Assembly: GCA_003134785.1 (NCBI GenBank)
Contig: PLCN01000002.1
Location: 496,219-560,218, forward strand
Source of the DNA: Spartobacteria bacterium
Lineage (GTDB): Bacteria > Verrucomicrobiota > Verrucomicrobiia > Chthoniobacterales > UBA10450
DNA: 64,000 nucleotides
Direction of reading: 5' to 3'
The translations under genes and the position numbers were made by a program. Below are positions 33,651-49,083 of the stretch, piece after piece (position 1 is the stretch's first letter; every line of letters begins with the position of its first letter). Under the pieces are notes generated by a model that had not been told where the DNA came from, ran no database searches, and was given only the letters and a program-made list of their open reading frames with translations.

Positions 33651-34952
33651 ATGCAATTGAATCAAGACACTCCAGAGCCGCAGAACAATGCCGATCTGAC
33701 CGTGGAAAATGATCCAGGAAAATTCAGCCTGAGCGATTTCCTGGTCGGGGACAGCAAGGATCCGCTGAAACCGCCGCCGGCTTTCACGCGGTGGCATCAT
33801 GTCGGTGAGTGGGCCATCGAGTTGTACGAACCTCAACTTCTCGGACCGGCCGAAGCGCGGACGACGCTGAACTACAACGGCAAATCACATCCGGTCATCA
33901 ATCTTTGCTCCTACAATTATCTTGGCCTGGCCAACCACCCGGAAGTGATCGCCGCCGCGCACGAGGCTTTACGCACGCACGGTCTGGGCGCGTGCGGCTC
34001 GCCCATGCTCTCGGGCATGACCGATCTTCATCGGCAACTGGAAAAGAAGATGGCGGAGTTTCTCGGTTACGAAAACGCGATGCTTTTCAACAGCGGTTTC
34101 GGCGGAGCGCTCGGCACAATCTCCGGACTGTTGCGCAAGAGCGACGTGGCCGTGATGGACAATCGCTCTCATCTTAGCCTGCGCGACGGCGCCGTGCTGG
34201 CGCGTACTCGCTCCGAGCGCTTCGAGCATAACGATCCGGAATCGCTCGATGCCGCCTTGACTCGTCACAAGGGAAAACGCCAGCTCGTAATCGTCGAGGG
34301 CATTTATTCGATGGATGGCGACTTCGGCAATTTGAATGCGTTGATGGATGTGGCCGACGCGCATGAAGCGCAGGTCTTCGTGGATGAAGCGCATTCGATG
34401 CTCGCCTGCGGGCAGCATGGTCGCGGGGCGGTTGAACATTTCGGCGTCGAAAAGCGAATTCGAATTCTCTACGGGACTTTCTCGAAAGCGTTCGGAGCGC
34501 TGGGTGGATTTGTCGCTTGCTCAAAGGAGACGCTCGATTACCTCCGCTTTTATTCGCATCCGTATGTCTATTCCTGCGCGCTTCCGCCGGTTGTTGTTGC
34601 CGCCATTTTGAAAGCGCTCGAGCTGGGGACGACCCAGCCTGAATTGCGCACGCGTCTCTGGGAAAACGCGGATTATTTTCACAAGCAGCTGACTGGTCTC
34701 GGCATCGACACCGGAAATTCGACCACCTACATCATGCCGCTCGTCATCGGAGATCGTGAGCGCATGTATCGCCTCGGACATGAGCTTCGCCATTGCGGTC
34801 TTTGGGTCGCGCCGGTCGATTATCCGGCGGTGCCGCAGGATAAAATTTGTTTCCGCGCCTGCGTGACGGCGAATCACACGCGCGCCGATTTGGACGAGGC
34901 GCTGAATATCCTCTCAGACACTCTTGTGCCGTCGCAGTTGCAGCACACTTAG
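33651..34952 (+). CDS. Alpha-oxoamine synthase, serine-palmitoyltransferase-like
   Basis: 433 aa PLP enzyme (aminotransferase class I/II, AONS/SPT group). Markers are INLCSYNYLGLANHP, the GLGACGSPMLSG loop, EGIYSMDGD, VDEAHSM, and the Schiff-base lysine K279 in GTFSKAFGALGG. An N-terminal extension of about 75 residues before the core is of the kind seen in bacterial SPTs. The reaction would be decarboxylative condensation of an amino acid with an acyl-CoA or acyl-ACP: L-serine plus a long acyl chain if SPT, or L-alanine plus pimeloyl if BioF. No biotin genes are nearby, whereas lipid genes are, so I favour sphingoid-base synthesis. Converges with the desaturase gene. Confidence 0.85.
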   Translation: MQLNQDTPEPQNNADLTVENDPGKFSLSDFLVGDSKDPLKPPPAFTRWHHVGEWAIELYEPQLLGPAEARTTLNYNGKSHPVINLCSYNYLGLANHPEVIAAAHEALRTHGLGACGSPMLSGMTDLHRQLEKKMAEFLGYENAMLFNSGFGGALGTISGLLRKSDVAVMDNRSHLSLRDGAVLARTRSERFEHNDPESLDAALTRHKGKRQLVIVEGIYSMDGDFGNLNALMDVADAHEAQVFVDEAHSMLACGQHGRGAVEHFGVEKRIRILYGTFSKAFGALGGFVACSKETLDYLRFYSHPYVYSCALPPVVVAAILKALELGTTQPELRTRLWENADYFHKQLTGLGIDTGNSTTYIMPLVIGDRERMYRLGHELRHCGLWVAPVDYPAVPQDKICFRACVTANHTRADLDEALNILSDTLVPSQLQHT

Positions 34953-34972
34953 CGCACAGCGGCGGAGCCGCC

Positions 34973-36013
34973 CTATCTTCCGTATTGCTCGCGCACGTGG
35001 GGTGGCACGAGACTCTTCTCAGGCAAGATCCCAGCCCAGGTGGATTTGAAAAAATCCCGGAGGAAAGGCACGTAACCCGAATAGATCGACGCCGAGGAAG
35101 CGAGGCGCTCCGGCTCGATGATCGCGTGCAACTTGCGCAGGTGGTACCACGGCGTCGCGGGGAAGAGATGGTGTTCGAGGTGATAATTCAAATTCGACAT
35201 GAAGAAGCGGACGAAGCCATTGCTGACGACGGTGCGCGTTTCGGAAAACGGATTCCCTGAAGTCGTTAGGCCGTGCTCGGCCAGACCGCGGACGTTGGCC
35301 AGTTGGCCGGCGACCAAAATGGGAAAGATCCAGGCCTTCAGCACCACCGCGACCGGGAGAAACCAAAACGCCAGGGCGATCGTGGCGACGATCAGGACGA
35401 ACTCGAACAGGATCCGTTTTCGGCAGGTCGCATTCGCGTGCCGGTAACCGACCACGGCCACGGTGACCAGGTAAATATAAATCCCGGCCAGGAGCACGAC
35501 GTAATAGACCAGAACGAGCGGGATCGACTTGGGTGCACTCCGCTCGATATCGTCCGGATCGACTTCACTACGCGCCAGGGAATGATGGACCAGATGAATA
35601 GAACGATAGGCGGACATCGAGACCAGGCCCGGTATTCCGCAGAGAACGCCAAGCCACCGGTTGAGCGATTTGTTTTTGCTGAGCAATGAATGACACCCCT
35701 CGTGCATCAACACGGTGAGGCCGGTAATTGAACAGCCGGAGAGAGCGATTCCGGTCCAGGTAACCAGGAGCAACGACGAGGCGAGGCTAAGCCAGATACC
35801 GATGGCCCAGAGCCCAAAGAGCAAGAGAATCTTCCAGTTCTTCCGGGTATCCAATTGCTGGAGCGACTTGATGATCTCCATCTGCCCTTTGGAGAAACTG
35901 CGCCGGTCCAGATCCGGCATTTCCACGGCGCCATCGACGAAATAAATATCCTGCCGGCGCGTGGGAATGCTGACCGAGGCTGGCGGACTTGGGCTGAGAA
36001 CGTCCGTAGTCAT
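34973..36013 (-). CDS. Membrane fatty-acyl/sphingolipid desaturase
   Basis: 346 aa integral membrane di-iron enzyme. The three histidine boxes are HEGCH (104-108), HLVHH (140-144) and NYHLEHH (276-282), with about four membrane helices in two pairs. The H-x2-H-H third box places it in the group including acyl-lipid and sphingolipid desaturases or hydroxylases. Last gene of a seven-gene operon; its start overlaps the previous stop by 4 nt. Given the neighbouring oxoamine synthase, it may desaturate or hydroxylate the sphingoid base or acyl chain (inference). Confidence 0.87.
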   Translation of the reverse strand: MTTDVLSPSPPASVSIPTRRQDIYFVDGAVEMPDLDRRSFSKGQMEIIKSLQQLDTRKNWKILLLFGLWAIGIWLSLASSLLLVTWTGIALSGCSITGLTVLMHEGCHSLLSKNKSLNRWLGVLCGIPGLVSMSAYRSIHLVHHSLARSEVDPDDIERSAPKSIPLVLVYYVVLLAGIYIYLVTVAVVGYRHANATCRKRILFEFVLIVATIALAFWFLPVAVVLKAWIFPILVAGQLANVRGLAEHGLTTSGNPFSETRTVVSNGFVRFFMSNLNYHLEHHLFPATPWYHLRKLHAIIEPERLASSASIYSGYVPFLRDFFKSTWAGILPEKSLVPPHVREQYGR

Positions 36014-36993
36014 GCCAGCGGCAATTCTACCCTAAGCCGGTAGGCCTGTCGAATGACTGAGAGGCAAACGGCCGCTTCTTGGAAAGATTCAAGAGCACGT
36101 TCGGGCCGATGAAATTGGGCCACGATGTCCGGCAACATCGCCGCAAACCAATCCGCATGATGCGATCCGGCCGACAACCCGCTCTCGAAACGAATCGGCT
36201 CGCCGCCGGCGTTTAGCGTGTCGTCATCGATCGCGATCACGCCGCGTTCGCCGGTCAACCGCATGGTGTTTCGCCGCACGTCCGCTCTCCAGGTGAGGAA
36301 AATCTTCGCCTGACCGTTTGGAAAAGTGAGCGTCAGCGTCGCTTCGTCTTCGACTCCGTTCGATGTGGGTCGATGCAGGTCCGCGTGGGCCTCGGTCGGT
36401 TCCTGACCAAACCAATGACCCGCGAGGTAGATCGCATGCCAGCCGTGATCCATCAGCACACCGCCGCCCGCGATGGCGGGATCGCGTCGCCAGTTTGGAT
36501 GATCAGGATCGGCGACCGCGCAATCCTGAATCCGCAAAGTTTCGATCTCCACCTCACGCACCTGCCCTATCGCGCCTGAGCGTAATATCTCGGTCGCCCG
36601 CCTAACGATAGGTGCGTATTTCCAATTGTGGACCGGCACCACGGCTCGTCGGCCCTCCCGCGCCAGACTTCGCGCTTTCTCGAGTTCAACCAAATCCAAC
36701 AACATGGGCTTTTCGCACAGAACGTTCCATCCGCGCGCGAGCGCCTCGAGCATCGGCTCTCCATGCAGCGCCGGTGGCGTGCAAATATCGACGAAATTAA
36801 TATCAGCGCCTGCGGCTAGTTCCTCGATGGTGGCAAAGGTTGCAACTCCCGGCACCGTTTCGCGCGCGGCTTTCCGCCGCGTTTCCGTTCGGTCAACTAC
36901 CGCGACAATCTTCGCCTCGTGCGAATCCGCGTAAGCGGGCCAGTGTCCGTTCCGAGCAACCTCACCGAAGCCGATTATCGCTCCTCGCAGCAC
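36010..36993 (-). CDS. Gfo/Idh/MocA-family oxidoreductase
   Basis: 327 aa NAD(P)-dependent dehydrogenase. A Rossmann motif near the start (GAIIGFGEVARNGHW), the family EKP motif in LCEKPMLL, and the C-terminal beta domain with the GGGVLMDHGWHAIYLAGH active-site stretch. Family substrates are sugars and cyclitols, including myo-inositol. Next to a class III aminotransferase it could oxidise a hydroxyl to a ketone for amination (inference). The start is GTG 36993. It overlaps the desaturase start by 4 nt. Confidence 0.85.
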   Translation of the reverse strand: MLRGAIIGFGEVARNGHWPAYADSHEAKIVAVVDRTETRRKAARETVPGVATFATIEELAAGADINFVDICTPPALHGEPMLEALARGWNVLCEKPMLLDLVELEKARSLAREGRRAVVPVHNWKYAPIVRRATEILRSGAIGQVREVEIETLRIQDCAVADPDHPNWRRDPAIAGGGVLMDHGWHAIYLAGHWFGQEPTEAHADLHRPTSNGVEDEATLTLTFPNGQAKIFLTWRADVRRNTMRLTGERGVIAIDDDTLNAGGEPIRFESGLSAGSHHADWFAAMLPDIVAQFHRPERALESFQEAAVCLSVIRQAYRLRVELPLA

Positions 36994-36997
36994 GCCT

Positions 36998-38308
36998 CTA
37001 TTCCATCCGTTCCAGCGCGCGGTCGATAATGGCCAGCGCGGAATTCGCTTGTTCCGCCGAAAGAATCAGCGGCGGATGAACGCGAACTCGCGGCGTGTAA
37101 CTCATCATGATCAGGCCGTCGGCCAGGCAACCCTTGAAGAACTCGATGCATTTCTCCTTCGGGAGAAGTGTCTTAGACTTCTGATCCGCCACCAGGTCGA
37201 AGCCGATCAATAACCCTTGCCCTCGGACGTTGGCGATCGAACGATGGCGGGTGGCGAGCGCTTGCAGTCCGTCGCGCAGCACAACTCCGACCGAGGCGGA
37301 ATTCTCCACGAGTTTGTCAGACAAGATCGTTTGAATCGTCACCAGCGCCGCCGCGGCCGCGAGCGGATTTCCCCCGTAGCTGGACGATGAAGCGCTCGGC
37401 AGCGAGAACGGTTTCGCAGCCATGATCTCATCCGTTGAAACGAGCGCGCTCACCGGAAATCCGGAGGCCATGCCTTTGCCGAGAGTCATGACGTCGGGAA
37501 CCACATCGTCACCGCTGCATCCGAATATTCGACCGGTGCGGCCGAAGCCTGTGATCATTTCGTCGGCGATCAAGAGCGCGCCGTACTCATGCGCGACATC
37601 ATGCACTTCGCGAAGAAATCCCGGCGGCGGTACGATGTTGCCAGCTGTTCCTTGAATCGGTTCGATCACAATGGCCGCGGGGCGCCCTGCGATGTCCTGC
37701 TCGATGAGTCGCCGAAGTTCCTTGATCGCGTCTTCCCGGCATTCCGTCTGGGAGCCTTCGTATCTGGTCGGATCCGCGTAAGGCGCGAGATGATGACCGG
37801 TGGGAAGAGGCCCGATCAAATGTTTCCAATCGACATCTGAGAGCGGAAGCACGCCGGCAGTCTTCCCATGAAAACCGCCAGTGAAACCGACGATGTCGGT
37901 TCGCTTGGTATAGGAACGAGCCAGTCGAATCGCCGCTTCAACAGCTTCCGCGCCGCCGCTGAAGAATTGAGTGCGCGAGAGTTCTCCTGGCGCCAGATCT
38001 GCGATCAACCTAACGAGTTCAGCGCGCGGCTGTGACGTGAAGCTGCCGACGGTTACGGCCTCGAGTTGTTTGGTCAGCGCCGCAATGTAGCGCGGATGCG
38101 CATGACCGAGGCTCGCGACCGATACGCCAGCATTCAAATCGAGATAAGTATTTCCATCGAGATCGGTCAGAGTGGCTCCGGTCCCGTGATCAATCGCCAG
38201 CTCCGATAACAAGGCGATCGTCTGTAATCCCGGCGCGATGAATTGGTGTTCTTCATCGAAAAGCGCTTTCGTTCGCGCCTGAGCGGAGGTGTAAGTCTTA
38301 GCTGGCAT
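36998..38308 (-). CDS. Class III PLP aminotransferase
   Basis: 436 aa of the omega-aminotransferase fold (ornithine/GABA/glutamate-1-semialdehyde group). Features are NAGVSVASLGHAHPRY, the cofactor region FFSGGAEAVEAAIRLAR, IVIEPIQGTAG, DEMITGFGRTG and the PLP lysine in LGKGMASGFPVSAL. ATG 38308 is preferred over GTG 38314. It overlaps the end of the ATP-grasp gene. The substrate is unknown; in this operon it probably makes an amino-alcohol or amino-sugar for a lipid head group (inference). Confidence 0.87.
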   Translation of the reverse strand: MPAKTYTSAQARTKALFDEEHQFIAPGLQTIALLSELAIDHGTGATLTDLDGNTYLDLNAGVSVASLGHAHPRYIAALTKQLEAVTVGSFTSQPRAELVRLIADLAPGELSRTQFFSGGAEAVEAAIRLARSYTKRTDIVGFTGGFHGKTAGVLPLSDVDWKHLIGPLPTGHHLAPYADPTRYEGSQTECREDAIKELRRLIEQDIAGRPAAIVIEPIQGTAGNIVPPPGFLREVHDVAHEYGALLIADEMITGFGRTGRIFGCSGDDVVPDVMTLGKGMASGFPVSALVSTDEIMAAKPFSLPSASSSSYGGNPLAAAAALVTIQTILSDKLVENSASVGVVLRDGLQALATRHRSIANVRGQGLLIGFDLVADQKSKTLLPKEKCIEFFKGCLADGLIMMSYTPRVRVHPPLILSAEQANSALAIIDRALERME

Positions 38309-39110
38309 GAACACGCCTGGTGATGAAATCAGCTATGGCATAAGACGCTCTCTCCCGACAGGGAGCGAATGACGGCCAGTCGTTTAGATCGATCAAAGTC
38401 AATTCGCCGGAAGTCGAAACGATTACGTCTCCGCCAAAAATATCCAGTCCAGCGGCGGTCGCCGCCCGGTTGGCCAGGGTCTCCAAGTGCGAAAAATTGA
38501 AAGGATATTTGCGCGCTTCTCCCGAGTAGAACCAATGGAAAAATGCGCTGCCGGCGACGCCGTAAAATTTGATCTCGTCGCCCGCCCGATGCGCCTGGAC
38601 CGCGGCCATGTCGATTCCACGCCTCGAGAATTCCGCCAAGCCCGCATCCAGGCGCTCCCGCGAATCGACCCACTGCACATCCGCCGTGACGGAGGCATGG
38701 ACATCGCCGCGCTTCAGCCAGATTCCGCCATCGAGATCGAGTGCATGCAGATCAACACTGCCCTTCGTGCCGACCAGGTGCGTTTGCGGAAACGAGACGC
38801 CGGCCTCGACCATCAAGGCCGGCAGGCGATCGCGATGTGTGTTTAAAGCGGCGCGCGGGCTGTTGATGATTTTGGCGCCGTCACGTTCCCACTCGGCGAG
38901 CCTCTCGAGCGCGGATCTTCCCTGGCACATCGAGAAGACTATCGCCGTGTCGGACCGGTGGTTGTTCGCTTCACCGAGGGTGAGGAGATCGACCGCGAAT
39001 TCGCGCTCGCGCAATCGATGCGCAATCTGATCGAGCAGCAGAACATCGTTTGATTGGTGACGGCCGGGCGAGTATTGCTTTTCCCGATACAAACCGAGCA
39101 ACCGCTTCAT
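38298..39110 (-). CDS. ATP-grasp (RimK-like) enzyme
   Basis: 270 aa. The fold is ATP-grasp: an N-terminal Rossmann-like part (INSPRAALNTHRDRLPALM), the lysine strand in GGIWLKRGD, and a metal-binding end in LTLIDLNDWPSFAPC. Such enzymes join a carboxylate to an amine, or phosphorylate inositol phosphates in the ITPK branch. Here it probably forms an amide or phosphorylates the head-group precursor; which is not decidable. It overlaps the nucleotidyltransferase stop by 4 nt (ATGA). Confidence 0.72.
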   Translation of the reverse strand: MKRLLGLYREKQYSPGRHQSNDVLLLDQIAHRLREREFAVDLLTLGEANNHRSDTAIVFSMCQGRSALERLAEWERDGAKIINSPRAALNTHRDRLPALMVEAGVSFPQTHLVGTKGSVDLHALDLDGGIWLKRGDVHASVTADVQWVDSRERLDAGLAEFSRRGIDMAAVQAHRAGDEIKFYGVAGSAFFHWFYSGEARKYPFNFSHLETLANRAATAAGLDIFGGDVIVSTSGELTLIDLNDWPSFAPCRERASYAIADFITRRVHAS

Positions 39111-39847
39111 ACGGACGCACTCCGGAGTAAGGCTTCTGCCGTTCCGATATCCGCCGGACGATCGACGTCGATTGATTCTGGAATCGGAATGCCGGCGAGC
39201 TGGTAACCACGATCGAGCAGACGGCCCAGAAAAGTTCGGAGTGCGTCGATCCCTTCACGTCGGGCTGCCTCGGCTTCGCGGAGAACCGACGCGCGGACCG
39301 CGTACACTCCCGCGGTCGCGTATTCGGAGGGCGCCGCTGCTTCACCGATCGCGATGACGCGTGAGTCTTCCCGTACCGTTCGCACGTAGAGTGGCTTTTC
39401 GTCGTCCCCCGGTGAAGTGAGCGCGAGTGTCAGCACCGCCTCTTCGAGCTGGCGGGCTTCGGCGATGAACCGGGCAAACGTCTGCGCGCCGGCCACGGTA
39501 TCGACCGTGGAAAGGAGAAACGGCCCTTCGTCTCCATCAGCCGCGAGCGTTTCAACGAGACGAAGAAAACTATGCATGGAGGTCGGCGTGGTCTCGACGA
39601 TCCAACTGAGGGCGAAAGGCCACTTTAGTTCGGCGACGTGATCGCGCACCGCGAGGGAGTCCTCATTAATAATCACGACGACTTCAGTGGCGCCGGCGTC
39701 TGACATCGAGTGCAGAACGTGCTCGATCAAAGTCTGATCGCCTACTTTCACGAGCGGCTTCAAACGGTTCAATTGCGTCTGCAATCGCTCACCGCGGCCC
39801 GCGGCGAGCACGCCCGCTCTCAGCGAAAACTTTCCGGGCGCGTTCAT
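39107..39847 (-). CDS. Sugar/alcohol-phosphate nucleotidyltransferase
   Basis: 246 aa. An NTP-transferase fold with the pyrophosphorylase loop AAGRGERLQ near the start, KPLVKVG, the STVDT metal site and a C-terminal DVDRPAD. It would activate an alcohol phosphate as a CDP (or NDP) derivative. Because the HAD phosphatase and a CDP-alcohol phosphotransferase are encoded directly upstream in the same operon, CTP is the likely nucleotide. Start and stop overlap both neighbours by 4 nt. Confidence 0.8.
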   Translation of the reverse strand: MNAPGKFSLRAGVLAAGRGERLQTQLNRLKPLVKVGDQTLIEHVLHSMSDAGATEVVVIINEDSLAVRDHVAELKWPFALSWIVETTPTSMHSFLRLVETLAADGDEGPFLLSTVDTVAGAQTFARFIAEARQLEEAVLTLALTSPGDDEKPLYVRTVREDSRVIAIGEAAAPSEYATAGVYAVRASVLREAEAARREGIDALRTFLGRLLDRGYQLAGIPIPESIDVDRPADIGTAEALLRSASV

Positions 39848-40545
39848 GCGAGAGCCAGGGAAGCTGCTGACAAAGCGGCGGGAAGATCGGCGAGCCGGCA
39901 GAGATGAAGATCGACCAGCGACGGGTCAGGACATTCGCGAGCCGCGGCGCCTTCGAGCCACGCCGTTGTCATGCCCGCCTTTTTCGCTGGCACCACATCG
40001 CGCTCAAACGAGTCGCCAACCATCATCATTGTTCCTGGATCGCCTCCGAGTTTTTCGGCGGCATGGCGAAAGATCGCGGGGTCCGGTTTGAAAAGCCCCA
40101 CCCGCCGCGAATCGACGACGACAGAGAGAAATGGCATGTAGCCAAGATCCTCGCAGAGCCGCTCTACGTTGCCGCAGCCGTTTGAGACGACGCCCAATTC
40201 AAAACCGCGCGCGACCAGGGTCGCCAGTAACTGCGCGTTCTCCGCCGCGGCCTGCCGGACCGGCGCGATGAAACCGTCAATGAGATGTTGCTCGAGATCA
40301 GGGTCCTTCAATTCCAGATGCGCGAGCTGCCACTCCACGTGAAGATCGATCATCCGCGCGAGATCTGCCGCCGCGATCCCTTCGTCCTGAGCGGACCTGC
40401 GTTCGGCTTCGTCGAACGCGCCGCGGATCGTTTCGCGCGGAAGCTGCACGCCGAAATTTTGGTAAAGCGCGAGAAAGCGATCAAGCCAATGCACGCCCTC
40501 GCCGTCGAGAGTGCCCCCCATATCGAAGAGAAGCGTGCGGATCAT
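39844..40545 (-). CDS. HAD-superfamily phosphatase
   Basis: 233 aa from ATG 40545, which begins exactly at the HAD domain (MIRTLLFDMGGTLDG); an upstream extension to 40602 would run through the previous gene. Motif I DMGGT starts at Asp8, motif II is VVSNG, motif III GLFKPDP and motif IV VGDSFERD. The cap domain is helical (about 15-90). It probably removes phosphate from the head-group precursor or product. Its start overlaps the CDP-alcohol phosphotransferase stop by 4 nt. Confidence 0.87.
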   Translation of the reverse strand: MIRTLLFDMGGTLDGEGVHWLDRFLALYQNFGVQLPRETIRGAFDEAERRSAQDEGIAAADLARMIDLHVEWQLAHLELKDPDLEQHLIDGFIAPVRQAAAENAQLLATLVARGFELGVVSNGCGNVERLCEDLGYMPFLSVVVDSRRVGLFKPDPAIFRHAAEKLGGDPGTMMMVGDSFERDVVPAKKAGMTTAWLEGAAARECPDPSLVDLHLCRLADLPAALSAASLALA

Positions 40546-41426
40546 GGGGAAAGCCGATTCGCCAGACTGGCGCGAAAGCGCCGGTCGGCCCAATCCTGCC
40601 AAAGCGAGAGTGAGAACGCGGCCGCGTTCATTGGGATCAGAACGAAAAGGAAGAACAAATCGAGCCGATGCAGCAGGGCGAGTATTCCGATGGCGTAGAA
40701 GCGGGTGTTGGCGCCGAGCAAATTCCAGCCCCGTTTCGGCCAGTAAAAATGGCGCGCATACTCCAGGCGATCGTCCTCCCGCACCTGTTCCTTACCGGCG
40801 CGAGAGCGGAGGAGGCGCGCGATTTCCATCTGTCCGCCGATGAGGCACTGCCGCAGGAGGGCATACCCGGTCCGCAGCGCACTCAGCGAACCGGACCGCG
40901 CCGCCGGCAGGTCATCCCTCGAGGCCACGCCTTTCCCCACTACTAAAGAATAAGCAGCGCGGTGGTAGACATAGAGCATCGCCTGAATCCCGAGGCACAC
41001 GTTCGCGAGGAGCGCCCATCCGATGATTGAACTCGAGCCGCCGCGATGGAGAATCCCCGCCGCGATCCCTAGGCAGATCGCGGCGTCCGTAAAGTAATCG
41101 GAGACTCCGTCCAAAAAAAATCCCCCCTCACTGCTCCGGCCCGTTAGGCGGGCGAGCTGGCCGTCCGCGGAATCGAAGAGGCCGTGCAGAATGAGCAGGC
41201 CGAAAGCAAAGAGCCCCAGGTCTTCGTTGTATAGGAGCAAGCCCGCGACCGTTCCCACGACGCCCGCCAGGATGGTAACCTGATTGGGCGTGAAGCGGCC
41301 GGCGTGCGCCGCCCGCGTGATCACGGCGCCCACTGGGCGAAAAAAATAGACGTCTGCTAATTCCTCCGTGTCGTACGCTTTGAGAGCGAGCGGCGGCTCA
41401 ACCGAGCGAGCTTCGGAAGAAATCAT
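40542..41426 (-). CDS. CDP-alcohol phosphotransferase (canonical motif)
   Basis: 294 aa membrane enzyme. The full CDP-alcohol phosphotransferase motif is present: D85-x2-D88-G-x2-A-R93, eight residues, G102, then D106 and D110. About six membrane segments. It moves a phospho-alcohol from a CDP carrier to an acceptor alcohol, as in phosphatidylinositol-phosphate or phosphatidylserine synthesis. ATG 41426 is chosen because the 64 residues of a possible extension to 41618 lie in the divergent promoter region. First gene of the seven-gene minus-strand operon that ends with the desaturase. Confidence 0.88.
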   Translation of the reverse strand: MISSEARSVEPPLALKAYDTEELADVYFFRPVGAVITRAAHAGRFTPNQVTILAGVVGTVAGLLLYNEDLGLFAFGLLILHGLFDSADGQLARLTGRSSEGGFFLDGVSDYFTDAAICLGIAAGILHRGGSSSIIGWALLANVCLGIQAMLYVYHRAAYSLVVGKGVASRDDLPAARSGSLSALRTGYALLRQCLIGGQMEIARLLRSRAGKEQVREDDRLEYARHFYWPKRGWNLLGANTRFYAIGILALLHRLDLFFLFVLIPMNAAAFSLSLWQDWADRRFRASLANRLSP

Positions 41427-41522
41427 AGGGCAATTGTAGTACTCAGATTCGCGCTGCCCGCAACGTCCGCGCCCAGCGGTCGCATTGCAAAAGTGGGCAG
41501 CCACTTTGACAATACCGCTGGC

Positions 41523-42680
41523 ATGCCACCGCAAGTCTCGCCCATAGAAATCACTCGCGTCGCATCGCGTGCCGAGCGGGACGCCTTCATCAAGTTTCCG
41601 TTTCGCATCTACGCGCATGATCCGGTCTGGGTGCCGCCGCTATTGCTGGAGCGTAAGCAGTTTCTCAACCGGGAGAAACACCCATTCTACCAGCACGGTG
41701 ATGCCGCCCTCTTTCTAGCCCGTCAGAATGGCGAAATCGTCGGGCGAATCATGGCCAGCGACGACCCGCGCTACAATGCACTTCATCAAACTAACGTTGG
41801 CTGCTTCGGCCTTTTCGAATGCATCGACAACCGCGACGTGGCCGCCGCTTTGTTTGCAGCGGCCGGAGACTGGCTGCGAGCGCGCGGCCGCAGTGAGATC
41901 ATGGGCCCGATCGATTACTCCACGAATTATGTGTGTGCGTTGTTGATCGACGGTTTTCAACATCCACCCACGATTCTTACCTCGCATAATCCGCCGTATT
42001 ATGCCGCGTTGATCGAAGCCTGCGGTTTCACGAAGGTAAAAGACTGGTACGCCTGGTTATTCAAGGATTTTTCCGGGCCCACCGAACGGCTTTGTAGAAT
42101 TGCGAAGGCGCGCAGGGGCAAACAGGGTGTGACGATTCGTCCGATCGATCCAAAAAAAATCATCGAGGAAAGCCGGCATCTTCATGCCATCTACGATCAA
42201 GCTTGGGAAAAAAACTGGGGCTTCGTGCCGTTCACCGAAGCCGAGTCCGAGCACATGGCGCGGGAGATGAAACCGTTGATCGTTCCGCGGAGCATCCTAA
42301 TCGCGGAGGTCGCTCGGGAGCCGGTTGGTTTCGCCATCTGCATTCCGGACATCAATGTCGCCCTGCGCCGCATTAATGGCCGGCTGACCTGGTTCGGTTT
42401 GCCGATCGGATTGGTCAGGTTCCTCTATTATCGAACCAAAATCCGGCTCGTCCGATTCATCGCGCTCGGGGTGGTGGAAAAGTATCGTCGCGCTGGCATC
42501 GCCGAGATGCTCGTTTTGCAAATGATGGATGAGGTTTCCCAGCGCGGATCGATCGGTGAACTCAGCATGACGCTCGAGGATAATTTTATGGTGAACCGTT
42601 TTGTCGAAGCGCTTGGGGCCACGCGTTACAAGACGTATAGGATCTATCAGCGTTCTCTGGATGGAAAAGGCTCGGAGTAA
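41523..42680 (+). CDS. GNAT-fold acyltransferase, bacterial ceramide-synthase-like
   Basis: 385 aa from ATG 41523 (GTG 41493 is an alternative). The N-terminal half contains FPFRIYAHDPVWVPPL, NREKHPFYQHGDAALFLA and GPIDYSTNYVCALLIDGF. The C-terminal GNAT half has IALGVVEKYRRAGIAEML, the acyl-CoA loop, and a final strand TRYKTYRIYQR. This layout is that of the YghO-like family to which, as I recall, the Caulobacter ceramide synthase bCerS belongs. It would N-acylate a sphingoid base. It is coupled to the next gene through a TAATG overlap and divergent from the operon starting at 41426. Confidence 0.72.
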   Translation: MPPQVSPIEITRVASRAERDAFIKFPFRIYAHDPVWVPPLLLERKQFLNREKHPFYQHGDAALFLARQNGEIVGRIMASDDPRYNALHQTNVGCFGLFECIDNRDVAAALFAAAGDWLRARGRSEIMGPIDYSTNYVCALLIDGFQHPPTILTSHNPPYYAALIEACGFTKVKDWYAWLFKDFSGPTERLCRIAKARRGKQGVTIRPIDPKKIIEESRHLHAIYDQAWEKNWGFVPFTEAESEHMAREMKPLIVPRSILIAEVAREPVGFAICIPDINVALRRINGRLTWFGLPIGLVRFLYYRTKIRLVRFIALGVVEKYRRAGIAEMLVLQMMDEVSQRGSIGELSMTLEDNFMVNRFVEALGATRYKTYRIYQRSLDGKGSE

Positions 42681-43864
42681 TGGCTGAAATTCGATCTTTT
42701 CGTCGCGTTCTGATCGTCGCCGATGAATCGGCGGATTGGATGGTCGCCGGTTTGCGACAGCTCGATCGTCTCGCGCTTTCGATCGATGAATTTGCGGTGG
42801 AGAACAAGGAGGCGGCGCCTGTTCTCGTCGGCATTTTTTGGCGGCCGGACCTTGATCAATCCCAGAGGTGGGTGCCGAAACACGAGCGGTTGACCAGAGT
42901 CGCTTTCACGGACGACCTGGATGGACAATCATTCGATCTTGTCCTCGGCACGCGGCTGTTCCTTTACCGCAAAGCCGTGCGGCGCTTGATGGAGGCCTCG
43001 GTTTCGCCGCCCCTGATTATCGCGCCGACCAGCGAGAAGGAATCGTGGGAAATCTGCTTTCGCCAAATGGAATCGCTGCCCCGTTCGCGGGAGGCCGCGT
43101 GGGAATGCATCACCGACGGGGACCAGATTGACGGGATCGAGATAAGGTTCCTGCGCGGCAGCGGCAAGTCCCAGGACGGTTTCGTTTCGCGATATTTGAA
43201 TCGTCCGATCTCGCGCGTGGTTACGCGCCTTCTTCTCAGATTCCCCACCACTCCAAACGCATGGACCTTGTTGATCTTCCCGATTCCAATCGCCGCGTCG
43301 CTCATTTTGCTCCACGGGAGCCATTGGTCGTTTTTGTGGGGCCTTATACTTTTTCAGGTCTTCAGCATCCTGGACGGTTGCGACGGCGAGATTGCGCGCG
43401 CGAAATTCTTGGAAAGCGAGCGCGGCCGCCAGCTCGACGATCTCTTCGATATCCTCAGCAATATTCTGCTCGTGGTCGGCCTGGGATTTGGACTCTCCTG
43501 GCAAACGAATCTCGCCGATCGCTCGCGCTGGTTCTACCTCATTGAAGGACTGGCCGCCGCCGCCTTGATTGGCGTGAATGAGTTTTATCTCGCAAGACGG
43601 AAGCCGCCAATGGACGAAGGAAAATCTGAGTCGTTAGGCGGCGCCCTTTATCCGCGTCATCGCGAATTGGTGGAGCGCTCTGGGGTTCTGGTCTTCGGAG
43701 AGAAGTTCGCGTCTTGGTTAATTCAGCTGACCAAACGTGATGTCGCGATGCTCTTCTTTGTGTTGTTGGCAGCAGTGGGACAACCCGCCTGGATTTTGCA
43801 TCTGCTTCTTGTCGTAACGGCCGTGAGCCTCGCACTCGCGTTGCGCGCGCGGGCGACGCTGTAG
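42680..43864 (+). CDS. CDP-alcohol phosphotransferase with degenerate nucleotidyltransferase N-terminus
   Basis: 394 aa. Residues about 1-165 resemble a nucleotidyltransferase-like domain without the G-x-G-x-R loop. Residues 175-394 are a membrane CDP-alcohol phosphotransferase with the complete motif D232-GC-DGEIAR, G, D and D, preceded by LNRPISRVVTRLLLRFPTTPNAW. The layout matches the fused IPCT/DIPPS enzymes that make di-myo-inositol phosphate in thermophiles, but here the cytidylyltransferase half looks inactive and an active one is encoded separately at 43901-44656. The TAG stop codon lies in a palindromic element. Confidence 0.82.
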   Translation: MAEIRSFRRVLIVADESADWMVAGLRQLDRLALSIDEFAVENKEAAPVLVGIFWRPDLDQSQRWVPKHERLTRVAFTDDLDGQSFDLVLGTRLFLYRKAVRRLMEASVSPPLIIAPTSEKESWEICFRQMESLPRSREAAWECITDGDQIDGIEIRFLRGSGKSQDGFVSRYLNRPISRVVTRLLLRFPTTPNAWTLLIFPIPIAASLILLHGSHWSFLWGLILFQVFSILDGCDGEIARAKFLESERGRQLDDLFDILSNILLVVGLGFGLSWQTNLADRSRWFYLIEGLAAAALIGVNEFYLARRKPPMDEGKSESLGGALYPRHRELVERSGVLVFGEKFASWLIQLTKRDVAMLFFVLLAAVGQPAWILHLLLVVTAVSLALALRARATL

Positions 43865-43942
43865 CCGCTTCGCTGTGCGAAGCGCGGGACCGAAGGTCGT
43901 TTAGCGCGAAAGCTCACGCCGCCCACAGGGCGGCGGCTGTAG
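43859..43942. repeat. CTGTAGCCGC-type palindromic element between convergent genes
   Basis: Begins CTGTAGCCGCTTCGCTGTGCGAAGCG. The first 26 nt are identical to those of the element at 59804. Contains three nested hairpins: CTTCGC-TGT-GCGAAG, GACC-GAA-GGTC and CGCCGCCC-ACA-GGGCGGCG. It supplies the stop codon of the upstream phosphotransferase (43862-43864) and encodes the last residues of the convergent cytidylyltransferase (PPPCGRRELSR). Confidence 0.75.
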
Positions 43943-44656
43943 GAGTCGCTCTGCTTCCTGCGCGGCTCGAGCCAACATTTCCGGCGTGTCGATGTCCTGC
44001 CACCACGCTTCACCGATATCGACCGCCAAGGCGTTCCCGTCCGCAGCCATGAGTCGGACGCCATCGGCCAGACTGCAGTCGTCGTTCTTGAGAGCGCGGC
44101 GCAGATAATCAAATATGATCGCGGGGCAGATGAAAATTCCGGTGTCGATCGCATTGTAGTTTTCGAGTTTCTTTCCGATCGCGACAATCAGGTTATCTCG
44201 AGTCTTCACTTTCATCGCGTCGTCCAAGTCGAAGATCGAATCGATTTTCTTGTCGACGGCCAGGTTCAATCGGCTGAGGTCCGCCCGTGCGACGAGGGCG
44301 TCGAGAATTGCCGGTTCAAAGACATGATCGCCCATCGCGAGGAAGAACGGCGCGCTCACGTTCCTCGCGGCAGTGAGCAGTGAGATTCCGTTTTGTTTCT
44401 GCCAATTCGGGTTTGAGATCGGACGGAACCGTATATGCGCGGGAAGAAGCGGCGCCACGGCGGCGGCCAGCGTATCACCATTCGGGCCGACCACCGCATG
44501 CAAGGTTCTCACGCCGACCTTGTCGAACGAATCGATCGCGTAGGAAATCAGCGGACGGCCGGCAATCGGGATCAGCGGTTTGGCAATCGTATCCACGGAG
44601 CCGCGGAGACGCGAACCAGTTCCTGCCATAAGAATGACCGCGTCAGTGATGCTCAA
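43901..44656 (-). CDS. Inositol-1-phosphate cytidylyltransferase-like enzyme
   Basis: 251 aa nucleotidyltransferase resembling the IPCT domain of archaeal and thermophile IPCT/DIPPS. The pyrophosphorylase loop AGTGSRLR is at 11-18, AKPL at 25-28, NPNWQKQNG at 82-90, the metal site GDH at 109-111, then NYNAIDTGIF and WWQDIDTP near the end. It would make CDP-inositol from CTP and inositol-1-phosphate; a choline-P or other alcohol-P substrate is possible. The start appears to be TTG 44656, just after the SDR stop. The C-terminal 14 residues come from a palindromic repeat. Confidence 0.75.
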   Translation of the reverse strand: MSITDAVILMAGTGSRLRGSVDTIAKPLIPIAGRPLISYAIDSFDKVGVRTLHAVVGPNGDTLAAAVAPLLPAHIRFRPISNPNWQKQNGISLLTAARNVSAPFFLAMGDHVFEPAILDALVARADLSRLNLAVDKKIDSIFDLDDAMKVKTRDNLIVAIGKKLENYNAIDTGIFICPAIIFDYLRRALKNDDCSLADGVRLMAADGNALAVDIGEAWWQDIDTPEMLARAAQEAERLLQPPPCGRRELSR

Positions 44657-44659: not shown

Positions 44660-45463
44660 CTACAACCCATAATACTTCTTCAACCCCCAAACGCGCACGA
44701 GTTGCGGAAGAAAACGAAAGATGAACGGAGCGACGATTGCCTGAAACGAACCGCCCACCGTTACGCGCGGTGGGGGATTATCGGCGTCGATCACGCTGGC
44801 AATGCGACGCGCGACCAATTCGGGCTTGGGCGCAGCTTTCATGTTTCGATCGACCACCCGCCACGCGTGCTCGACCTGCGCGGTGTAACGGGCATCGCCG
44901 CCATCCGTCCTCGCGATGGCATCGTTAAAGTCGGTGCAGATATCGGCGGGCTGCAAATCGATGACGCGGATGTTTGATCCTTCGAGTTCGAGTTGCATCG
45001 TCATGGTAAAGGAAGCCATGGCAGCTTTCGCCGCGTTGTAAGCGCCCATGAATGGGACGGGGAGGCGTGAAGCCAGCGAGGTGACATTGATGATGCGTCC
45101 GCCGCCGTGGTGCCGCATCGAGGCCAGGGCGAGGCGGCAAAGCTCGATGTGGGCGAAGACGACCGTTTGAAATTGAATGTGCACGGCTTCCGTCGAGAGG
45201 AATTCCGCAGGTCCGAAATGTCCGCTGCCGGCGTTATTAATCACGATATCGAAATGACCCGCTTCACGGAGCGCGGCGATGAAGCACTGGCCTAACGACA
45301 CGTTGTCGCTGAGGTCGAGACGAACGGGATGCAGGCGCGGTAACGACGGGAGGCGTGCGATGTCCCGCGAAGTTCCCCAGACTTCATCGCCGCGGCCGGC
45401 CAGGAGTTTCGCGGTGGCGAGACCGATGCCCGCACTCGCGCCGGTAAGAAAAACGCGCTTCAT
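44660..45463 (-). CDS. Short-chain dehydrogenase, ketosphinganine-reductase-like
   Basis: 267 aa from ATG 45463. Classical SDR: cofactor motif TGASAGIG near residue 8, NNAGSG, catalytic Ser in NVTSLAS and Y-x3-K in AYNAAKAAM. The C-terminus ends in a hydrophobic stretch (FQAIVAPFIFRFLPQLVRVW) that could attach it to the membrane, as in 3-ketodihydrosphingosine reductases. It sits next to CDP-alcohol enzymes and within 10 kb of the oxoamine synthase, which supports a 3-keto reduction role, though the family is very broad. Confidence 0.75.
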   Translation of the reverse strand: MKRVFLTGASAGIGLATAKLLAGRGDEVWGTSRDIARLPSLPRLHPVRLDLSDNVSLGQCFIAALREAGHFDIVINNAGSGHFGPAEFLSTEAVHIQFQTVVFAHIELCRLALASMRHHGGGRIINVTSLASRLPVPFMGAYNAAKAAMASFTMTMQLELEGSNIRVIDLQPADICTDFNDAIARTDGGDARYTAQVEHAWRVVDRNMKAAPKPELVARRIASVIDADNPPPRVTVGGSFQAIVAPFIFRFLPQLVRVWGLKKYYGL

Positions 45464-45488
45464 GGAAGGAATTGTCGCGCCAATAAGT

Positions 45489-47018
45489 TCATGGCTCGGC
45501 CCCAGAGCGACGGTAATAGAACCACGCTCCACCGTAGACGAGGAGGAACGCAGCGCTGGCCATGACTTGACCCGCGGCGCCGTCGATCAGTGTGCGACAC
45601 AAAACTGCGGGCATGGCTGCAAGTAACGCAGCGATCAAAGGACGACCGATATCTCCCCAAGGATTGCGCCAGCGAAAGACCATTCGCAGCGCGCGATAAC
45701 GCAGAATTCCCTGGAGCACGTACGGAAGCAAAATGCCGAAGGCGGCGCCGGTCACGCCGAATCGGCTGATGAGCCACAGGTTCGCGCTCAGCGCGACGCC
45801 GCAGGTGATGATTGAATTCAGCAAATTCAATCGCGGCTTTTGCACCATGATCACAGTTTCGGCGAGGCTGACGAAGGCATTCGTGGCGCAGGCGATCGCC
45901 ACGATACCGAGCCACATCCCGCCCTGTTGAAACACGGGACCGTAAATCCCGAGGATGACGGAACCGCCCAGGACCATCACCGCTACGATCGGCAAGAGAA
46001 TCCAGAGCATCCATTGCGACACGCGCGAAAATGCGATGGCGGCATGCTCCTGGTCGCCGTCGACGGTGAGGCCGGCCACGATCGGTGCGAAGATGGGATT
46101 GAACGCCTGGTTAATTTTCCGAAGACCGCCGGCGACTTCTACGGCCGCGCCGTAAATGCCGAGCGTGGTTAGCGTCACACCGGGCGCGTGTCCGACAAAG
46201 CATCCCAGCATGACGACATCCAGACGGACGATGATGGCGTTGAGCAAATCATACGCGCTGATCGGCGCGGCGTAGGCCAGCAGCCTGCGGGCTTCCGCGC
46301 GGTAGGAAAGCGAGGTTGAGCGCGGCGGTGCGGAGCGAAAGAGCGACGCGGCCAGAAAGAGGGCGACTACCCCCGAAGCGCCCATCCCGACGATCACCGC
46401 GATTTCCGGCGCGAATGTCCTTAGCCCGAACCAAAGCGCTGCGAGAAATGCCAGCGTGGTGACGATCGTTTCCGTAATGCCGCGCGAGAAGATGTCATGC
46501 CGCATTACTTTCATTCCGCGCGACACAGCAGTGTTGATGCGATACAAAGCGACCACCGGCATCGCGCAAAACATGACTGAAAGTGCGGCGGCCATTTGCG
46601 GATCGAGGCCCAGCCGACGACCGAAAATCCGGACAAACGTGATCGAGATTCCCGCGAGAAGAGCGCATTGGAACACGCCGAGAAAAACGGCCAGGCGAAA
46701 GAGTGCGCGGCTGCGGGACCGATCGCGGGCTGCCTCGGCTCGCGCAATGAAGGTGATGATGGTGTCGTCGAGGCCGAAGACGCCGATCTTGCTCACGAGA
46801 TCCGTTGTGGCCCATGCAACGGAGAAAATGCCGAGCGCGGCAGGACCGAGCAGCCGGGCCACGAGGAAGGTGAAGATGCCTCGGAAATTCGAGGCGAGCA
46901 TCGCGATGAGGTTCGTCCACGCGCCGCGTTTCAATTCCGCTGCGTGATCGACGGACGCGTCTCGCTCCAAGTCCCCCGGCGGAAGGATGAGGCGCAACAG
47001 GGTTTCGGCGGCAGTCAT
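45489..47018 (-). CDS. MOP-superfamily flippase (Wzx-like), copy 1
   Basis: 509 aa from ATG 47018, with about 12-14 membrane helices. The polysaccharide-flippase signature lies in the N-terminal part (NFRGIFTFLVARLLGPAALG), with RGMKVMRHDIFSRG in the middle. It would flip a polyprenyl-linked sugar or lipid across the inner membrane. It is clearly paralogous to 51779-53338 (for example xFRGIFTFLVARLLG and GGLRK, then FxPIFAP in both). Followed by the SDR on the same strand and preceded by an ABC ATPase gene. Confidence 0.87.
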   Translation of the reverse strand: MTAAETLLRLILPPGDLERDASVDHAAELKRGAWTNLIAMLASNFRGIFTFLVARLLGPAALGIFSVAWATTDLVSKIGVFGLDDTIITFIARAEAARDRSRSRALFRLAVFLGVFQCALLAGISITFVRIFGRRLGLDPQMAAALSVMFCAMPVVALYRINTAVSRGMKVMRHDIFSRGITETIVTTLAFLAALWFGLRTFAPEIAVIVGMGASGVVALFLAASLFRSAPPRSTSLSYRAEARRLLAYAAPISAYDLLNAIIVRLDVVMLGCFVGHAPGVTLTTLGIYGAAVEVAGGLRKINQAFNPIFAPIVAGLTVDGDQEHAAIAFSRVSQWMLWILLPIVAVMVLGGSVILGIYGPVFQQGGMWLGIVAIACATNAFVSLAETVIMVQKPRLNLLNSIITCGVALSANLWLISRFGVTGAAFGILLPYVLQGILRYRALRMVFRWRNPWGDIGRPLIAALLAAMPAVLCRTLIDGAAGQVMASAAFLLVYGGAWFYYRRSGAEP

Positions 47019-47043
47019 GGAACGCAAGTGCCGAAACCCGAAT

Positions 47044-47748
47044 TCATCTGCGCCCGCGCGGATGGCTTCCGACGATCAATCCATCCTGCATCTCGTGAAT
47101 CCAATCGCACGCCTCGGCGATTTCAGGATTGTGCGTCACCAGCAACAAAGCCTTTCGCTCTTCCTGCACGACGCGTTGCAGCAGTTCAAAGGCGCGCCGT
47201 GAATTCGCGCTGTCGAGATTTCCAGTCGGCTCGTCCGCCAGAATCACGCTCGGATTATTGGCGAGCGCGCGCGCCACGGCCACACGCTGTTGTTCTCCGC
47301 CGGAGAGATGGCGGCTTGGCCGCTTCAACTTGCTGCCGAGCCCGACGGCATCGAGCAGGTGCTTGGATCGTTCATGCATCTCTGGTTCGCTCAGCGCAGC
47401 TAATCTCCGCATCGGGATCATCACATTTTCCTGCGCGGTAAAATCCTCGAGGAGAAAATGGAACTGGAAGATAAATCCCAGAAGTTCATTCCGTTTTTTT
47501 GCCAGAGCATCATCGACCAAATGAGAAACGGCCTCGCCTTCAATCGTGACCCAGCCGCTATCGGCCTGATCAAGCAATCCCAGGATATAAAGCAAAGTGC
47601 TCTTGCCGCAGCCGGACGGACCGACCACCGCATGCACGGTGCCGCGTTCGAGTTGCAGTGACACTCCGCGCAAGGCATGCACGCGCGAATCCTCCTCGCC
47701 CAGAAAGCGTTCGATGCCTTCGCAACTGAGCGAAACTTCGGCGTTCAT
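47044..47748 (-). CDS. ABC transporter ATP-binding protein (LolD/MacB type)
   Basis: 234 aa from ATG 47748; an extension to 47832 reads into the divergent promoter. Walker [10 protein letters not shown] (43-51), Q-loop [14 protein letters not shown], signature LSGGEQQR, Walker [10 protein letters not shown] and the H-loop in VTHNPE. The sequence belongs to the LolD/FtsE/MacB branch that partners with FtsX-type permeases. No permease is adjacent; the best candidate partner is the permease at 56061-57305, whose operon lacks an ATPase. A truncated duplicate lies at 53388-53523. Confidence 0.9.
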
Positions 47749-47811
47749 GAATTTTAAGGTAGCTTCACTCGCAACGGCAGTGAAACCTTTTTGCTCCGTC
47801 TCCTTCGCTTC

Positions 47812-49083
47812 ATGGAATCGTCGCGACCGCAATTAATCATCCTCGCTGACGCACCGGCCGCGTTTTGCAATCTTTTCGGTATTTCGCTTCTGGAGCGGCT
47901 GCTTCGGGTCGCGCAACGGCTCGGGTTCCGCGAAGCCATCATCGTTTCGAATTCGCCGGAAGAGATGGCGACCCATCTGGCGAAACCGTCATGGGCGCGC
48001 GCGGATGTGGCGTTGAATTTCCGTCCGCGAAATGCGGCCGGCGTGCGAGTGAGCGAAGTGGCGACCGGCGCCAGCCACATCCTGATTGTCTCTGCCGGAT
48101 TTTATTATGACGCGCGGTTGTTGATAACGATGGCCAAACAAACCATGACAACGATGCTGATCGATTCCGCTCCGCCTCCGGAATGCCTGGGGTTATGGAA
48201 AAATCAGGGCGGCGTTTTCCGCGCGGCCGCGTTGCTGGAAGGAGATTGGCTCTCGCGCCAGGATCACACGGCTGCGTTGATGGATCAGCTTTCCTCCGAC
48301 GCCGGCACCGGGCGAATCGAAGTTTGCGATGCGGCGCGACAGCCAACTTACGTGATGCCGCTGCGCAAGCACGTGCGGCCGGTCTTTTTTCCTGCCCCAT
48401 CGCCGAATCTCATTTCGCTGGCCGAACGATTCCCGCGCCAGGCAGCGCAGAACGGAACATTGGATTTTCCTGGTTGGGTTGACGCCCCGATCGAGAACTG
48501 GATCGTTGCGCGCCTTTGCCTGACCTCGATCAGGCCCAATCAAATCACATTTGTGACCGCACTGATCGGCCTGCTCGTCACGGCCCTTTTCGCTACGGGC
48601 TATCTTTGGCTCGGGCTGGCGTTCGGTTTCGCGGTCGAGGTGCTGGATGGCGTGGATGGGAAATTGGCGCGGACGAAAGTCGAGACGACCGCGGCGGGGG
48701 ACTGGGAGCACGTGGTCGATTACTGCATCGAGCTATCCTGGTGGACGGCGCTCGCGTATCATTTTCACGCGGAGAATCTGCGTTCCGCTTACTGGCTGCT
48801 CCTCCTCCTCGTCGGCTCGGACTTGGTCGATCGCCTCGCGAAACGCGCTGTGAAAAAGAAAGTCGGACGCAATCTGGACGACGTTTCGAATTTCGATCGC
48901 TTCGTCCGGTGCATTGGCAGCCGGCGTAATATCAATATCTGGATCTTCGCTGCAGCTCTCGCCCTCGGCGATGCCGCGAATGGATTTGTTCTGATTTGCT
49001 GGTGGATGGCTGCGACGGCGGCGTCGCATGTTATCCGCGCGTTGCAGATCCCGTTCTCCCCAAACGGAAGAGACCCGCGCTAA
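47812..49083 (+). CDS. CDP-alcohol phosphotransferase, variant motif, with nucleotidyltransferase-like N-terminus
   Basis: 423 aa from ATG 47812 (TTG 47791 possible). Residues 1-215 resemble a nucleotidyltransferase fold without its P-loop; residues 220-423 are a membrane phosphotransferase. The motif starts canonically (D279-GV-DGKLAR287, G296), but the usual Asp at +4 and +8 are His300 and Tyr304, with Asp303 and Glu307 nearby (GDWEHVVDYCIE). I recall a CDP-alcohol phosphotransferase subgroup with such an EH-x2-D-x3-E pattern, so it may be a distinct active subfamily rather than a dead enzyme. Its stop overlaps the convergent radical SAM stop. Confidence 0.78.
   Translation: MESSRPQLIILADAPAAFCNLFGISLLERLLRVAQRLGFREAIIVSNSPEEMATHLAKPSWARADVALNFRPRNAAGVRVSEVATGASHILIVSAGFYYDARLLITMAKQTMTTMLIDSAPPPECLGLWKNQGGVFRAAALLEGDWLSRQDHTAALMDQLSSDAGTGRIEVCDAARQPTYVMPLRKHVRPVFFPAPSPNLISLAERFPRQAAQNGTLDFPGWVDAPIENWIVARLCLTSIRPNQITFVTALIGLLVTALFATGYLWLGLAFGFAVEVLDGVDGKLARTKVETTAAGDWEHVVDYCIELSWWTALAYHFHAENLRSAYWLLLLLVGSDLVDRLAKRAVKKKVGRNLDDVSNFDRFVRCIGSRRNINIWIFAAALALGDAANGFVLICWWMAATAASHVIRALQIPFSPNGRDPR

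Follow-up and report, generated by a model that had tools for sequence, protein, structure and literature searches.

How bacteria make inositol sphingolipids without a PIP synthase has been an open question since Bacteroides vulgatus and Prevotella veroralis were found to produce inositol-phosphodihydroceramide without the genes of Bacteroides thetaiotaomicron, as described by Heaver et al. 2022 (PMC9246714). These authors proposed CDP-inositol as the head-group donor in these mesophilic gut Bacteroidetes and named three genes of an alternative cluster, the ATP-grasp gene not being among those named. In Caulobacter, the CDP-alcohol transferase domain protein CpgA (CC_1159) is required for the second phosphoglycerate of a ceramide lipid (PMC11324152). 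Here we analysed a 64,000-nucleotide stretch (the window) of contig PLCN01000002.1, from an uncultured Chthoniobacterales bacterium with a 4.4-Mb genome, in which sphingolipid genes are intermingled with genes for a predicted CTP:L-myo-inositol-1-phosphate cytidylyltransferase (IPCT) and three CDP-alcohol phosphotransferases (COP1, COP2 and COP3). With moderate confidence, we propose that this locus makes an inositol phosphosphingolipid from CDP-inositol, the probable product being inositol phosphoceramide.

The relatives of the host are metagenome-assembled genomes recorded as 'Spartobacteria', Chthoniobacterales or Candidatus Udaeobacter; judging by the titles of their records and by general background, most of them come from soil. 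An earlier note, made from the letters of the DNA alone, had listed an SPT-type synthase, a KdsR-like SDR (short-chain dehydrogenase/reductase), a GNAT protein, a desaturase, three CDP-alcohol phosphotransferases, an IPCT-like protein and INO1, and each of these lies where it had been placed. Beyond that inventory, the window contains a block of three genes, NTP2, ATPG and HAD (38298-40602), and an exporter of the LolD/DevA-MacB-HlyD-TolC kind. Gene content, synteny, family membership, motifs and linkage are observed; from these we infer every reaction and product. The features are as follows.

33651..34952, plus strand: SPT-type alpha-oxoamine synthase, predicted serine palmitoyltransferase (SPT; PF00155; BioF/Kbl/SPT models)
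34973..36013, minus strand: fatty acid desaturase/hydroxylase, accessory (PF00487, E 4e-41; outside the family-wide core)
36010..36993, minus strand: Gfo/Idh/MocA oxidoreductase, accessory block (PF22725/PF01408; at this locus only in the window's genus)
36998..38314, minus strand: class III aminotransferase, accessory block (PF00202, E 3.5e-98; at this locus only in the window's genus)
38298..39110, minus strand: ATP-grasp protein, ATPG (33-35% identity to the gene of the Bacteroidetes alternative inositol-lipid cluster)
39107..39847, minus strand: NTP2, second cytidylyltransferase-like protein (30-34% identity to the NTP transferase of the Bacteroidetes cluster)
39844..40602, minus strand: HAD hydrolase (PF00702; 26-33% identity to the HAD of the Bacteroidetes cluster)
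40542..41618, minus strand: COP1 in its genus-specific form COP1b, CDP-alcohol phosphotransferase with six transmembrane helices (PF01066, above cut-off; start probably near 41426)
41493..42680, plus strand: bacterial ceramide synthase (bCerS)-type GNAT (start probably near 41535)
42680..43864, plus strand: COP2, DIPPS/AF2299-type CDP-alcohol phosphotransferase whose N-terminal nucleotidyltransferase domain is degenerate (PF01066, above cut-off)
43901..44656, minus strand: IPCT, predicted (NF041135, E 8e-33; motifs; profile)
44660..45532, minus strand: KdsR-like SDR, predicted 3-ketodihydrosphingosine reductase (NF049977, E 3e-46, below the curated cut-off; start probably near 45463)
45489..47027, minus strand: polysaccharide-flippase-type membrane protein (PF01943; in relatives present or replaced by a glycosyltransferase and a flippase)
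47044..47832, minus strand: LolD/DevA-like ABC ATPase of the exporter (TIGR02211, 235 bits; TIGR02982, 178 bits)
47791..49083, plus strand: COP3, CDP-alcohol phosphotransferase with a degenerate N-terminal domain (PF01066, above cut-off; related to a transferase of the Roseomonas sphingolipid cluster)
56061..61392, minus strand: four exporter genes, for a MacB/FtsX permease, an HlyD adaptor and two TolC-type outer membrane proteins
61195..62664, plus strand: INO1, inositol-3-phosphate synthase (PF01658, E 6e-37; TIGR03450, 436 bits; start probably near 61570)

The grouping of these genes is real and not due to chance, as the set is syntenic in 19 genomes from nine genera. Our sample of the order comprised 117 Chthoniobacterales genomes, 20 of which belong to the window's family; the set is kept in 19 of these 20, in one case (G095) only as fragments. 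IPCT orthologues (51-84%) and SPT orthologues (71-92%) co-occur in the same 19 genomes of the 117, all from this one family, and GNAT orthologues (62-72%) were found in 17 of the 19. All 20 sampled family genomes contain INO1, compared to 8 of the 97 other genomes of the order; divided by IPCT, INO1 occurs in 19/19 genomes with an IPCT orthologue and in 9/98 without one. Family genomes are not independent, and Fisher values for these comparisons serve as a description of the pattern. INO1 orthologues linked to the locus share 80-94% identity, and IPCT and INO1 lie 5.8-23.7 kb apart in all 14 genomes in which both are on one contig. One family member, G115, has no SPT, GNAT or IPCT orthologue and carries only a divergent INO1 (53%). 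Such a divergent INO1 (53-54%) is found near a glycosyltransferase gene, away from the sphingolipid locus, in G115 and in G099, where it is a second copy (L153, L155). In another genome, G058, the bCerS-type GNAT has been swapped in place for a divergent GNAT (28% identity; L129:14412-15557).

In the core arrangement, SPT-COP1-GNAT-COP2 (with a COP3-type gene in place of COP2 in some genomes) faces IPCT-SDR; the exporter comes next, and then INO1. COP1 thus sits between SPT and GNAT in the relatives, and the gaps between SPT, COP1, GNAT and COP2 range from -14 to +40 bp in six of them, with a single exception of 172 bp where the COP1 gene model is truncated. The genes had been described as not forming a single operon, which holds for the window but not for these six relatives, in which SPT-COP1-GNAT(-COP2) is one tight operon. 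The SDR gene adjoins IPCT in the same direction in nearly all family members, and every genome with a sufficiently complete locus has COP2, COP3 or both.

The assignment of IPCT is carried by its motifs and profile scores, since long branches in the tree leave the Thermotoga maritima IPCT, CpgD-like and phosphoglutamine-type proteins without a firm position. The best NCBIfam model is that of the IPCT-DIPPS family (NF041135), with a score below the cut-off for the full bifunctional protein, and the best PDB matches are the inositol-1-phosphate cytidylyltransferases 4jd0 and 2xme. With a profile built from 18 IPCT orthologues, the solved IPCTs of Archaeoglobus fulgidus and T. maritima scored 110 and 103 bits, respectively, compared to 47 for LicC and 40 for PntC. 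The catalytic residues R16, K26 and D110 are invariant in the 18 orthologues; those of CpgD are R16, K26 and D112 (PMC12275187). IPCT also contains MxDH and IGKxLxx(Y/F)xxxDTGxF, which are common to the A. fulgidus, Sphingomonas and fused IPCTs; the T. maritima IPCT shares the second motif and has CGDS at the first. A CpgD-like protein from Roseomonas, used as a stand-in for CpgD, has NGD and SIG at these positions, and CpgD contacts glycerate through N110 and S170 (PMC13228409). NTP2 lacks the IPCT motifs.

A phylum-wide profile search recovered IPCT in the window's family only (3 of 289 genomes), making co-occurrence with ino1 across Verrucomicrobiota uninformative, and other phyla were used in its place. 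Among the genomes with IPCT outside the Verrucomicrobia, 12 of 14 carry the inositol phosphate synthase MIPS, whose gene adjoins the IPCT homologue in Nitrospirota (L214), at L222, L234 and L235, and in Sphingomonas. The MIPS partners belong to two subfamilies, which makes simple hitch-hiking an unlikely cause of the association. At eight or more loci, the IPCT homologue and a CDP-alcohol transferase bearing a DGCDGEIAR-type motif form a single fused protein, as in A. fulgidus; these fusions occur in Myxococcota and several other bacteria, and a fusion is also found at the Nitrospirota locus L214. A plasmid of Sphingomonas parapaucimobilis carries an overlapping operon of a COP1-type transferase, MIPS and IPCT (L241:10053-12720), and genome G408 combines COP1-MIPS-IPCT with SPT and GNAT. 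The Sphingomonas operon could account for reports of inositol-like sphingolipids in sphingomonads that lack the known genes.

The predicted sphingolipid half of the locus comprises SPT, the SDR and GNAT. NCBIfam scores for BioF, Kbl and SPT are close for the oxoamine synthase, and motif and tree were used for its assignment. Its lysine motif is GTFSK, as in SPTs, while Kbl has GTLGK; a separate Kbl of the host genome (GTLGK) groups with E. coli Kbl at 100/100. In the tree, the oxoamine synthase family is a separate clade, distinct from Kbl and BioF, with no settled place among the SPTs, so that the grouping with BioF/KBL that the earlier note had considered did not occur. The SDR fits oxidoreductase and KdsR models best. 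GNAT is 38.5% identical over 98% of its length to the GNAT of the Roseomonas mucosa sphingolipid cluster, whose further genes include those for SPT, an acyl carrier protein and a diacylglycerol-kinase-family protein, and 42% identical to a Streptomyces GNAT encoded in an SPT-GNAT-epimerase operon. The comparison with bCerS was made through such GNATs of sphingolipid clusters, with the Roseomonas relative in place of Caulobacter CC_1154; a PDB search with GNAT returned just a short, weak match to NAA30. Adjacent SPT-GNAT pairs with no IPCT or INO1 nearby are found in other families of the order (L147, L148, L150-L152), which therefore probably make sphingolipids with another head group. A search of the available literature for sphingolipids of the Udaeobacter group found no publication on them.

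The three CDP-alcohol phosphotransferases fall into different groups. COP1 clusters at 98/98 with the transferases encoded beside MIPS and IPCT in Sphingomonas and at L234, and its structure comparison gave Z scores of 19.0 to AF2299 and 16.9 to DIPPS. In genera other than the window's, COP1 shares 32-42% identity with the Bacteroidetes transferase from the alternative inositol lipid cluster; the identity of COP1b to these transferases is 29-40%. COP2 has the motif SILDGCDGEIARA as in A. fulgidus DIPPS (pattern DGCDGEIAR...G...D...D) and falls at 96/96 in a clade with DIPPS, AF2299 and the fused IPCT-transferases. Its model aligns over the full length of the IPCT-DIPPS structure 4mnd (Z 22.1, 319 residues), identifying its N-terminus as a degenerate nucleotidyltransferase domain. 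COP3 shares a clade (96/95) with the transferase encoded in the Roseomonas sphingolipid cluster, possibly the counterpart of Caulobacter CpgA. The active-site motif of COP3 is altered (DGxDGK.AR...G..EH..D), with the third and fourth aspartates shifted or replaced, and this form is conserved in seven relatives. Three further CDP-alcohol transferases of the host are probably housekeeping enzymes; each of the eight genomes examined has counterparts of them. COP1 is most likely the enzyme that forms inositol phosphoceramide, and is our best candidate for this step.

The window's genus differs from the rest of the family in a set of genes related to the Bacteroidetes cluster. At the Bacteroidetes loci (L284-L287), the ATP-grasp gene lies between the NTP transferase and CDP-alcohol transferase genes, followed by HAD, and MIPS adjoins the cluster in Prevotella and Bacteroides and is nearby in Phocaeicola. 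Matches to ATPG in the plasmid collection were confined to Prevotella, Parabacteroides, Bacteroides and Phocaeicola. Homologues of the NTP transferase, CDP-alcohol transferase and HAD are adjacent in the window (39107-41618), with MIPS 20 kb away, while the other genera of the family have just the transferase and MIPS from this set. Five of the six genomes of the window's genus carry the NTP2-ATPG-HAD block together with COP1b; the sixth, G045, has the family's usual COP1. A second set (NTP2, ATPG, HAD and COP1b) thus appears to have been added in this genus. Profile matches of ATPG were all weak, the first being an ATP-grasp ligase (25 bits), followed by inositol 1,3,4-trisphosphate 5/6-kinases; that ATPG is an inositol kinase is speculation.

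In the proposed pathway, SPT would condense serine with an acyl thioester, the SDR would reduce the ketone and GNAT would N-acylate the product to yield dihydroceramide. INO1 would provide L-myo-inositol-1-phosphate, which IPCT would convert with CTP to CDP-inositol. COP1, most likely, would then transfer inositol phosphate from CDP-inositol to the primary alcohol of ceramide, acting as a Kennedy-type inositol-phosphoceramide synthase, and COP2 or COP3 would probably carry out a second CDP-inositol-dependent or head-group-extending transfer. The stereochemistry of MIPS and of eukaryotic phosphatidylinositol is established; if the MIPS product is converted to CDP-inositol without inversion, the phosphodiester would be on the D-3 (L-1) hydroxyl, unlike in eukaryotic inositol phosphoceramide. 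A bolder version, which we hold only tentatively and think rather doubtful as a whole, combines a direct bacterial CDP-inositol:ceramide inositolphosphotransferase (COP1), a D-3 (L-1) linkage mirroring the eukaryotic lipid, a second inositol phosphate added by COP2/COP3, and an ATP-grasp inositol kinase belonging to the Bacteroidetes-type module.

Several observations weigh against the synthesis of an inositol phosphosphingolipid from CDP-inositol. The scores of SPT and KdsR are below the NCBIfam cut-offs, and COP1b of the window is a divergent replacement, only 24% identical to COP1 of its congener G045, so that its substrate may differ. IPCT and COP2-type transferases also occur together in genomes without a detectable bCerS-type GNAT, indicating that the pair need not make a sphingolipid. 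Solved CDP-alcohol phosphotransferases with lipid acceptors (CEPT/CPT) have three to four additional C-terminal transmembrane helices (PMC4634129), whereas the models of COP1 and COP2 consist of the six-helix core only, which fits a soluble acceptor; this is the main structural objection.

Other readings of the same genes were weighed against these points. CDP-inositol could be made and its inositol phosphate passed to diacylglycerol, giving phosphatidylinositol, with transfer to ceramide later or never. This is the order proposed for the homologous cluster, with HAD as the exchange enzyme, by Heaver et al. (PMC9246714), and the window does encode a HAD homologue; we nevertheless consider it unlikely here. 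Direct transfer to ceramide is more likely in this family than an exchange of the kind drawn for Bacteroidetes: in genera other than the window's, the locus has neither HAD nor ATPG, yet COP1 remains in the operon with SPT and GNAT. HAD was for the same reason rejected as an essential step for the family at large. Somewhat less probable still is that COP1 acts like a PIP synthase on CDP-diacylglycerol or another CDP-lipid while IPCT and COP2 separately make a soluble di-inositol-phosphate, as in hyperthermophiles. COP1 is weakly sister to the PIP synthases (85/85) and has six transmembrane helices, and its invariant R156 and R242 could bind phosphate, although the alignment did not reliably reach R153/R191, which bind inositol phosphate in PIP synthase; COP2 resembles DIPPS over its full length, and IPCT-COP2 fusions occur without bCerS. 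However, Sphingomonas and L234 have COP1, MIPS and IPCT with no COP2 nearby, in which case COP1 would be the only evident user of CDP-inositol.

The substrate of the IPCT-like enzyme could instead be some other phosphate ester (2-phosphoglycerate as for CpgD, phosphocholine, phosphoglutamine or a sugar phosphate), giving a head group that is not inositol, but this seems very improbable. The family does include such members, and the closest solved fold of CpgD is also an IPCT, but MxDH and DTGxF match IPCTs and not the CpgD-like or phosphoglutamine-type protein, and linkage to INO1/MIPS extends across phyla. The earlier note had named use of choline phosphate or a sugar phosphate as an outcome that would refute its reading; by motifs and profile scores, IPCT resembles neither such enzymes nor a glycerate-phosphate enzyme. 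We give the least credence of all to a scheme in which SPT and GNAT make another acyl-amino ketone lipid, not ceramide, in a coincidental neighbourhood. It could draw on the equivalog cut-offs, which SPT and SDR do not reach, and on E. coli YghO, which is also about 36% identical to GNAT, but SPT-GNAT adjacency recurs in other families of the order, in Streptomyces, in Rubrobacter and in the Roseomonas sphingolipid cluster. The proposed use of CDP-inositol for a ceramide or other lipid alcohol, as the earlier note had suggested, gains independent comparative support from the IPCT motifs and profiles, from repeated linkage or fusion of IPCT homologues with MIPS and DIPPS-type transferases in other phyla and from the homology of COP1 to the transferase of a cluster whose bearers make inositol-phosphodihydroceramide.

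Among the neighbouring genes, those of the exporter (LolD/DevA ATPase, MacB, HlyD and two TolC-type proteins) are conserved throughout the family, in the interval from the lipid genes to INO1; this ABC system is similar to DevBCA-type glycolipid exporters and may be responsible for export of the lipid. The Gfo/Idh dehydrogenase and class III aminotransferase (36010-38314) could give an amino-modified inositol; nothing else supports this.

An SPT and a ceramide synthase tied to a recognizable IPCT and COP1 make donor and acceptor testable with a few purified enzymes. The locus suggests that soil Verrucomicrobiota of the Candidatus Udaeobacter group, and some Sphingomonas, could be makers of inositol sphingolipids, and the stereochemistry of inositol could separate the CDP-inositol route from the PIP-synthase route in environmental lipids.

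Compared to known systems, the locus is close to the alternative inositol lipid cluster of B. vulgatus and P. veroralis, with which it shares MIPS, a cytidylyltransferase-like protein and a COP1-type transferase; the bearers of that cluster produce sphingolipids, and CDP-inositol has been proposed as donor there (PMC9246714). Here, in contrast, a true IPCT-type cytidylyltransferase is found family-wide, the transferase gene lies inside the SPT/ceramide-synthase operon, HAD and ATP-grasp genes are confined to the window's genus, and the DIPPS-type COP2 and Roseomonas-type COP3 are additional. With IPCT/DIPPS of di-myo-inositol-phosphate synthesis (A. fulgidus 4MND, T. maritima 4JD0), it shares the IPCT motifs and the full-length alignment of COP2, including the degenerate IPCT-like domain; here IPCT and transferase are separate genes, in a sphingolipid locus of soil bacteria and with a predicted lipid acceptor. 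Synthesis of ceramide diphosphoglycerate in Caulobacter (CpgD/CpgA) likewise involves CTP-dependent head-group activation, a CDP-alcohol transferase acting on a ceramide lipid and clustering with SPT and N-acyltransferase genes (PMC12275187, PMC11324152). It differs in its CDP-glycerate, ceramide kinase and Lpt-type transport, and no MIPS is described for it; neither a kinase nor Lpt genes of this kind were seen in the window locus. The B. thetaiotaomicron BT_1522-1526 and mycobacterial PIP synthase route also yields an inositol lipid from MIPS-derived inositol phosphate, but uses CDP-diacylglycerol as donor and needs a phosphatase step. The earlier note therefore overstated the novelty of CDP-inositol chemistry in a mesophile, since this donor was proposed in 2022 (PMC9246714), and CpgD/CpgA provide a precedent for placing a CDP-activated head group on ceramide (PMC12275187, PMC11324152). 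With the CDP-inositol idea in print since that year, what this locus adds is a second lineage with a true IPCT, its direct connection with the ceramide genes, further transferases and an inositol linkage predicted to be unusual.

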